Shown here: positions 47,198 to 47,926 of the stretch, piece after piece
Layout: each line of letters opens with the position of its first letter
How positions within the stretch are numbered: position 1 is the stretch's first letter
DNA from: Desulfobulbus propionicus
Lineage (GTDB): Bacteria; Desulfobacterota; Desulfobulbia; Desulfobulbales; Desulfobulbaceae
Direction of reading: 5' to 3'
DNA: 64,000 bases
NCBI GenBank assembly: GCA_002748735.1
Contig: PDTC01000015.1
Location: 28,186 to 92,185, forward strand
Program-made: the position numbers and the translations under genes
Notes under the pieces: generated by a model
The model's database searches: none
The model's input: the letters and a program-made list of their open reading frames with translations, nothing else
What the model was told of the DNA's origin: nothing

Positions 47198-47283
47198 GGA
47201 GGGATGGCCGAGTGGTTTAAGGCGGCGGTCTTGAAAACCGTTGTACGAAAGTACCGTGGGTTCGAATCCTACTCCCTCCGCCA
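47198..47283 (+). tRNA. tRNA-Ser (anticodon TGA)
   Basis: A class II tRNA with acceptor GGAGGGA pairing TCCCTCC, discriminator G and encoded CCA. The anticodon loop CTTGAAA reads TGA. A long variable arm (TTGTACGAAAGTACCG) and GGTTCGAATCC in the T-arm mark a serine isoacceptor for UCA and related codons. Confidence 0.95.
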
Positions 47284-47312: not shown

Positions 47313-47404
47313 GGAGAGATGACCGAGAGGCCGATGGTGCTCGCCTGCTAAGCGAGTGTGGGGGTTATACTCCACCGAGGGTTCGAATCCCTCTCTCTCC
47401 GCCA
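47313..47404 (+). tRNA. tRNA-Ser (anticodon GCT)
   Basis: A class II tRNA with acceptor GGAGAGA/TCTCTCC and encoded GCCA. The anticodon loop CTGCTAA reads GCT for AGC/AGU. A long variable arm follows and the T-loop is GGTTCGAATCC. It is 29 bases after the first tRNA and likely processed from the same transcript. Confidence 0.95.
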
Positions 47405-47419
47405 TATCCCATCGCTATG

Positions 47420-47460
47420 CAACCGGTCAGTGGAGAACTGCTGACCGGTTGTTTTCTTTT
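47420..47460 (+). terminator. Rho-independent terminator of the tRNA operon
   Basis: Eleven-bp perfect arms at 47420-47430 and 47441-47451 (CAACCGGTCAG/CTGACCGGTTG) with a 10-base loop are followed by TTTTCTTTT. Confidence 0.92.
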
Positions 47461-47590: not shown

Positions 47591-47926
47591 TCAGATATAT
47601 TTTTTATACATGGGTTCCGAATACCCGACAATAACACGATCGCCGATGCGCAACGTCGGCGCCCGTAAAGTACCACTGCGGCCAAGGGCCTGTTTGAGGA
47701 TATCTTCCTGGTTCTCCTGATTGGGGGTAAACACGGTGAAATTTTTCCCTCGACCGATCACCACTTCCTGCACCCCTGTAAAAAGATCCCAGGCCTGGTC
47801 TTTTTCGATTTTTGTTTTGCGTGCATCAGCACTTTCAGAAATTGTGACGTTTTTTGTTTCAAACACAGCCTGTGCTTTTGTACAGGATGCTCAACCCTTG
47901 CGAAGATAGGCCCAATCAATGGTCAT
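47591..47926 (-). CDS. Probable selenoprotein, ArsC/Spx-like thioredoxin fold with U-x-x-C
   Basis: Read from ATG 47926, the protein is 111 residues with an in-frame TGA as codon 12 (47891-47893). It begins MTIDWAYLRKG-U-ASCTKAQ, so U12 and C15 form a UxxC where ArsC/Spx/glutaredoxin-like proteins have CxxC or CxxS at the first helix. Later LRAPTLRIGDRVIVGY matches the conserved cis-proline region of that fold. A GTG start after the TGA (47866) would drop the first strand and the redox motif. A SECIS-like hairpin lies 20 bases after the TGA. The final stop is also TGA. A cysteine-to-stop mutation is the alternative. An in-frame ATG at 47935 could also start it. Confidence 0.75.
47861..47877 (-). 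promoter_or_regulatory. Candidate bacterial SECIS hairpin
   Basis: On the minus strand AAGCACA (47877-47871) pairs with TGTGTTT (47867-47861) around a GGC loop, with one G-U pair. Twenty bases separate the TGA from the loop, within the 16-37 range reported for bacterial SECIS elements, and the loop begins with G as in known examples. An overlapping alternative pairs CCTGT with ACAGG. Confidence 0.6.

Follow-up and report, generated by a model that had tools for sequence, protein, structure and literature searches.

The minus strand of the analysed stretch (hereafter the window, 64,000 nucleotides in all) carries a putative ArsC-like selenoprotein gene at 47591..47926, comprised of 111 codons and a terminating TGA. 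Read from 47926 to 47591, the frame translates as MTIDWAYLRKG*ASC...MYKKYI* (asterisks mark TGA codons); without its final stop it occupies 47594-47926. The first of the two TGA codons is in-frame codon 12 (47891..47893, minus strand) and is read here as selenocysteine (Sec), the U12 of a UxxC motif in the context K-G-U-A-S-C (U12-A-S-C15). The first-pass annotation had reported an in-frame TGA at this codon and in this context, and both were confirmed. The partner residue in the UxxC pair is Cys15 (47882..47884, minus strand). An Arg88-Ala89-Pro90 segment (47657..47665, minus strand), invariant in the 13-row alignment, is presumably the cis-proline segment of a thioredoxin fold. Mechanical listing of open reading frames begins the frame at the GTG of 47866 (47591-47866) and loses the active site, as had been anticipated for a gene caller. 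The gene is a clean case of an active site cut away by ordinary ORF calling.

Two serine tRNA genes lie in tandem past the 3′ end of this gene and on the opposite strand (47198-47283 and 47313-47404, plus strand; anticodons tga and gct, respectively), and the second is followed by a strong terminator-like hairpin of 15 pairs (47419-47452, plus strand). Elsewhere in the window, G+C falls to 34-42% between 36000 and 44000, which is low for the window; this stretch spans a beta-lactamase-fold (PF00144) gene, dnaN, gyrB, and gyrA. The flanks of the homologous loci L009-L020 and L030-L059 were searched for nine window genes. Apart from the window's own locus (L043), the only one to turn up was the thioesterase, near the loci L046, L052, and L053 of the same family. 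With only the thioesterase shared, the neighbourhood gave no function.

The window protein matched the NCBIfam family NF041106 (ArsC_rel_Se_1, “ArsC family (seleno)protein”) at 125.1 bits against a cut-off of 85. The match was full-length (residues 3-107 to model positions 1-107) and stood 40 bits above the cut-off, and the Sec or Cys expected of the family in an N-terminal UxxC was present. Matches to the Pfam Glutaredoxin, Glrx-like, and ArsC families fell below their respective cut-offs. When a profile of 13 homologues (alignment A1, 13 rows) was searched against solved structures, Spx chains came first (E 1.8e-4), followed by YffB and by a putative arsenate reductase. The NF041106 match and the first place of Spx in the profile search support the earlier reading of an ArsC/Spx-like redox protein.

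The codon 12 position was read in 67 loci altogether, of which 63 had TGA (Sec) and four had TGT (Cys). The 63 Sec loci represented 62 distinct genes, as L016 and L045 were identical. Homologues aligned at a UGA or a Cys codon had been proposed as the observation that would favour a selenoprotein, and homologues all beginning downstream of the TGA, with neither residue there, as the observation that would speak against one; Sec or Cys occupied the position in all 67 loci. Homologues from named records (39-61% identity) had TGA at codon 12 in 12 of 12 cases, and their codon 15 was either TGC or TGT. In the phylum sample, NF041106 matches above the cut-off were found in 28 of 395 genomes, the window's own included; each of the 28 contained one TGA, seen at the motif every time. 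Recurrence at the same codon in all 12 named-record relatives and all 28 phylum matches makes the codon 12 TGA more than a chance occurrence. The order sample contained the family in 64 of 116 genomes (65 matches), with one TGA in 61 matches and no stop in four, the latter having TGT. Those read at the site itself were 26 loci new to this sample, the loci shared with the phylum sample, and the fourth no-stop case; the others are stop counts.

Below the cut-off, the phylum sample yielded matches in eight further genomes, with a TGA inside the match in five and none in three; one of these five spanned positions 44-106 only and had its TGA elsewhere. The aligned place was read in two of the eight (L058 and L059), and both had U-T-T-C there. 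These two proteins scored 78 bits (L058) and 71.8 bits (L059) against the TIGR01617 (Spx/MgsR) cut-off of 75.05. They are distant cousins that straddle this cut-off, placing Sec in proteins near Spx proper.

The protein is conserved on both sides of the TGA. For codons 2-11, which lie upstream, counting every possible single change to the window gene's codons gave a neutral expectation of 20 synonymous to 70 non-synonymous changes. When the window gene was compared with the 49 distinct Sec genes that the family model had retrieved, synonymous codon differences numbered 191 and non-synonymous ones 90; comparison with all 61 other distinct Sec genes gave 253 and 91. The 12 named-record loci alone gave 62 to 1, a ratio that is inflated because these loci were found partly with the peptide pattern MTIDWAYL, which lies before the TGA. 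Codons 2-11 are thus conserved as protein. Of the 62 distinct Sec genes, 58 have ATG as codon 1 and the remaining four have a different codon there.

A putative bacterial SECIS apical hairpin of 7 bp with the loop GGC (AAGCACA-GGC-TGTGTTT; 47861..47877, minus strand) follows the TGA by 20 nt. A hairpin with a G-starting 3-base loop had been claimed at this place and at this spacing, and it lies exactly there. A published bacterial SECIS model calls for a loop of 3-9 nt with a G within its first two positions, an upper stem of 4-16 bp, a spacing of 16-37 nt from the UGA, and a free energy no higher than -7.5 kcal/mol; according to the available part of the same review (PMC13188914), some selenoprotein genes do not fit this model. 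The window hairpin fits the loop, stem, and spacing limits. It misses the energy limit, reaching -5.1 to -6.2 kcal/mol when enforced, and a competing fold at -9.4 kcal/mol occupies the same bases. The proposal of a bacterial SECIS element in the window gene therefore stood for shape and spacing and fell short for energy, the hairpin being weak. The competing fold (CCTGT...ACAGG, 47869-47886, minus strand) is also picked up as a weak terminator-like site, probably by chance.

Covariation had little meaning across the full set: the hairpin occurs in three registers, and within the register of the window gene four of the seven pairs are invariant. Synonymous recoding was used for this reason. The registers held 15, 32, and 9 of the 63 Sec loci, seven loci fitted none, and the loops began with GG, GT, or AGT. 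Each gene was scored by its best unbroken stem whose loop carries a G at position one or two and compared with synonymous recodings of itself. The window hairpin scored -4.0 kcal/mol (p 0.057). Over the 62 distinct Sec genes, the mean best G-loop hairpin was -6.63 kcal/mol, compared with -1.84 kcal/mol after recoding (200 recodings each). The native hairpin was below its own recoded mean in 61 of the 62 genes, with p < 0.05 in 30 and not in the other 32. A set of 40 genes, counting both L016 and L045, gave means of -6.77 and -1.52 kcal/mol, with p < 0.05 in 26 (300 recodings each). At six control positions in 40 genes (40 recodings each), p < 0.05 was reached by 1, 0, 2, 1, 0, and 2 genes, and the means at the last control position were -1.89 and -0.90 kcal/mol. 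A hairpin beyond the needs of protein coding is a family-wide feature.

The four Cys (TGT) loci (L064, L068, L071, and L093) all belong to one genus, g7, and were counted as one event. Three have the motif CASC and one (L093) has CASS. The scan for unbroken stems returned no hairpin in three of these genes, a scan of this kind being blind to broken stems. Free folding downstream of the Cys codon gave the three genes stems of -8.9, -8.9, and -11.2 kcal/mol, each with a mismatch or bulge. The view that the hairpin has decayed in the Cys genes would therefore be wrong. L093 folded freely at -9.9 kcal/mol; the loop of its best unbroken stem (-8.5 kcal/mol) does not start with G, and one more pair must be opened to obtain a loop that does (-5.1 kcal/mol). 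The loop G was absent from the most stable fold in all four Cys genes and the stem was kept, so that the stem by itself is no mark of Sec and the missing loop G is the difference. In a tree of 65 proteins, built from few columns with the site masked and L093 left out, the other three Cys genes formed one starred group inside the Sec genes, beside a Sec gene of the same genus. Subject to rooting and to the small number of columns, the tree reads as one apparent change from Sec to Cys. It is a single event, yet it points to the part of the hairpin worth testing.

The window's genome (1.81 Mb, 30 contigs, 85.6% complete) contained three of the four selenocysteine genes that the first-pass annotation had named for a check. 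A selC gene was found at 72.6 bits (tRNA-SeC, anticodon tca); a second selC-like match above the cut-off (47.5 bits) was a tRNA-Trp. The selA gene (617 bits) begins at base 468 of its contig, and selD (364 bits) has an internal in-frame TGA. With its TGA in AGUAAKLGP, this selD (G000:C18:45080-46021, L029) appears to be another selenoprotein gene, the organism's second. The fourth gene, selB, was not found in the 85.6% complete assembly by a curated model or by a relative's SelB protein; the latter search covered eight genomes and gave matches in three (32-39% identity), none of them the window's genome. The missing selB is a caveat, as absence of selB or selC had been named beforehand as counting against a selenoprotein.

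Among the other relatives searched, 16 of 17 had selB above the cut-off (16 of 18 counting the window's genome). In the order sample, 104 of 116 genomes had selB at E 1e-62, scoring being limited to 10 candidates for each genome. By family content, selB was found in 54 of the 60 genomes carrying the TGA form, three of the four carrying the Cys form, and 47 of the 52 that lack the family. Since selB was about as frequent with the family as without it, co-occurrence gives no support.

The window gene is best explained as an NF041106 selenoprotein gene whose UGA at codon 12 is decoded as Sec at the active site, a reading given a probability of about 0.92. In vivo, the UGA would be decoded by the Sec-tRNA (the selC product, charged through selA and selD) together with a SelB that is probably encoded in this genome, and the hairpin some 20 nt downstream would guide decoding. 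The product would be a small protein located in the cytosol, with a thioredoxin fold of the ArsC/Spx type, in which Sec12 would be the nucleophile and Cys15 usually the resolving thiol.

That the TGA is instead a true stop, produced by mutation or assembly error and leaving a gene that is broken or starts at the GTG of 47866, is hardly credible: the output of mechanical ORF finding (47591-47866) and the lack of a visible selB in the assembly agree with such a stop, but the same TGA stands in 63 of the 67 loci, codons 2-11 are conserved as protein, and four homologues have Cys at codon 12. A pseudogene or a sequencing error was likewise ruled out, since 63 of the 67 loci share the TGA at this codon. 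Reassignment of TGA as a general code change was set aside, given that selA, selC, and selD are present, that the gene itself ends in TGA, and that the four non-TGA homologues have Cys.

The gene could also be a selenoprotein gene by descent in a lineage that has lost selB, so that its UGA now acts as a stop. The retention of selA, selC, and a Sec-containing selD, the intact frame, and the presence of selB above the cut-off in 16 of 17 other relatives all make this very unlikely, notwithstanding the failure to find selB in a genome that is 85.6% complete and the weakness of the window hairpin. Moreover, selA lies at base 468 of its contig, and its neighbour on that side may therefore be unassembled.

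Under the preferred reading, that of a decoded Sec12, the product is most likely a cytosolic selenol-based oxidoreductase of the ArsC/Spx type. In the ArsC mechanism, one residue attacks and resolution is carried out by another thiol. Residue 15 is Ser rather than Cys in one Sec locus (L053) and one Cys locus (L093), which would fit attack by residue 12 with resolution open to a different thiol. Candidate substrates may include arsenate, another oxyanion, or a protein disulfide. Because Spx chains are the profile's nearest solved relatives and Ser replaces Cys15 in two loci, the protein might alternatively be a Spx-like selenium redox switch, and not an enzyme, that binds a macromolecular partner (e.g., RNA polymerase) and acts as a sensor of redox or selenium state; this is a long shot.

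Among known systems, Spx and the ArsC-related regulators (TIGR01617, PF03960) include the nearest solved structures to the window family by sequence profile. The window protein lies far under the curated cut-offs, at 17.6 of 75.05 bits for TIGR01617, the Spx RNA polymerase-binding regulator, and 12.3 of 24 bits for PF03960; the arsenate reductase model TIGR00014 was not among the nine NCBIfam matches listed up to E 10. The arsenate reductase selenoprotein described in the available part of PMC1088965 (TIGR00014) is likewise arsenate-reductase kin with Sec. It differs in having the motif UxxS and, in the accessible review text (PMC13188914), an entry of its own, whereas the window gene has UxxC. 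The part of PMC1794560 that could be consulted lists an ArsC-like selenoprotein for Desulfotalea and, for Desulfuromonas, a distant homologue of ArsC. The Desulfotalea psychrophila protein is likewise ArsC-like, Sec-containing, and deltaproteobacterial, a likeness of description. The accessible portion of PMC12013277 makes no mention of ArsC; that of PMC9312934 has an “Arsenate reductase-like protein” (COG1393) with UxxC. The first-pass annotation had left open whether the exact subfamily is described. It is: NF041106 is entered as “Arsenate reductase-like protein, UxxC” in the available part of a 2026 review, which calls the functions of such proteins still largely uncharacterized (PMC13188914). 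The family and its Sec are thus already documented, with no function assigned. The window gene shares with this entry both the UxxC and the full-length match, no difference from it being found, and is a correct, ordinary find belonging to an already catalogued family.
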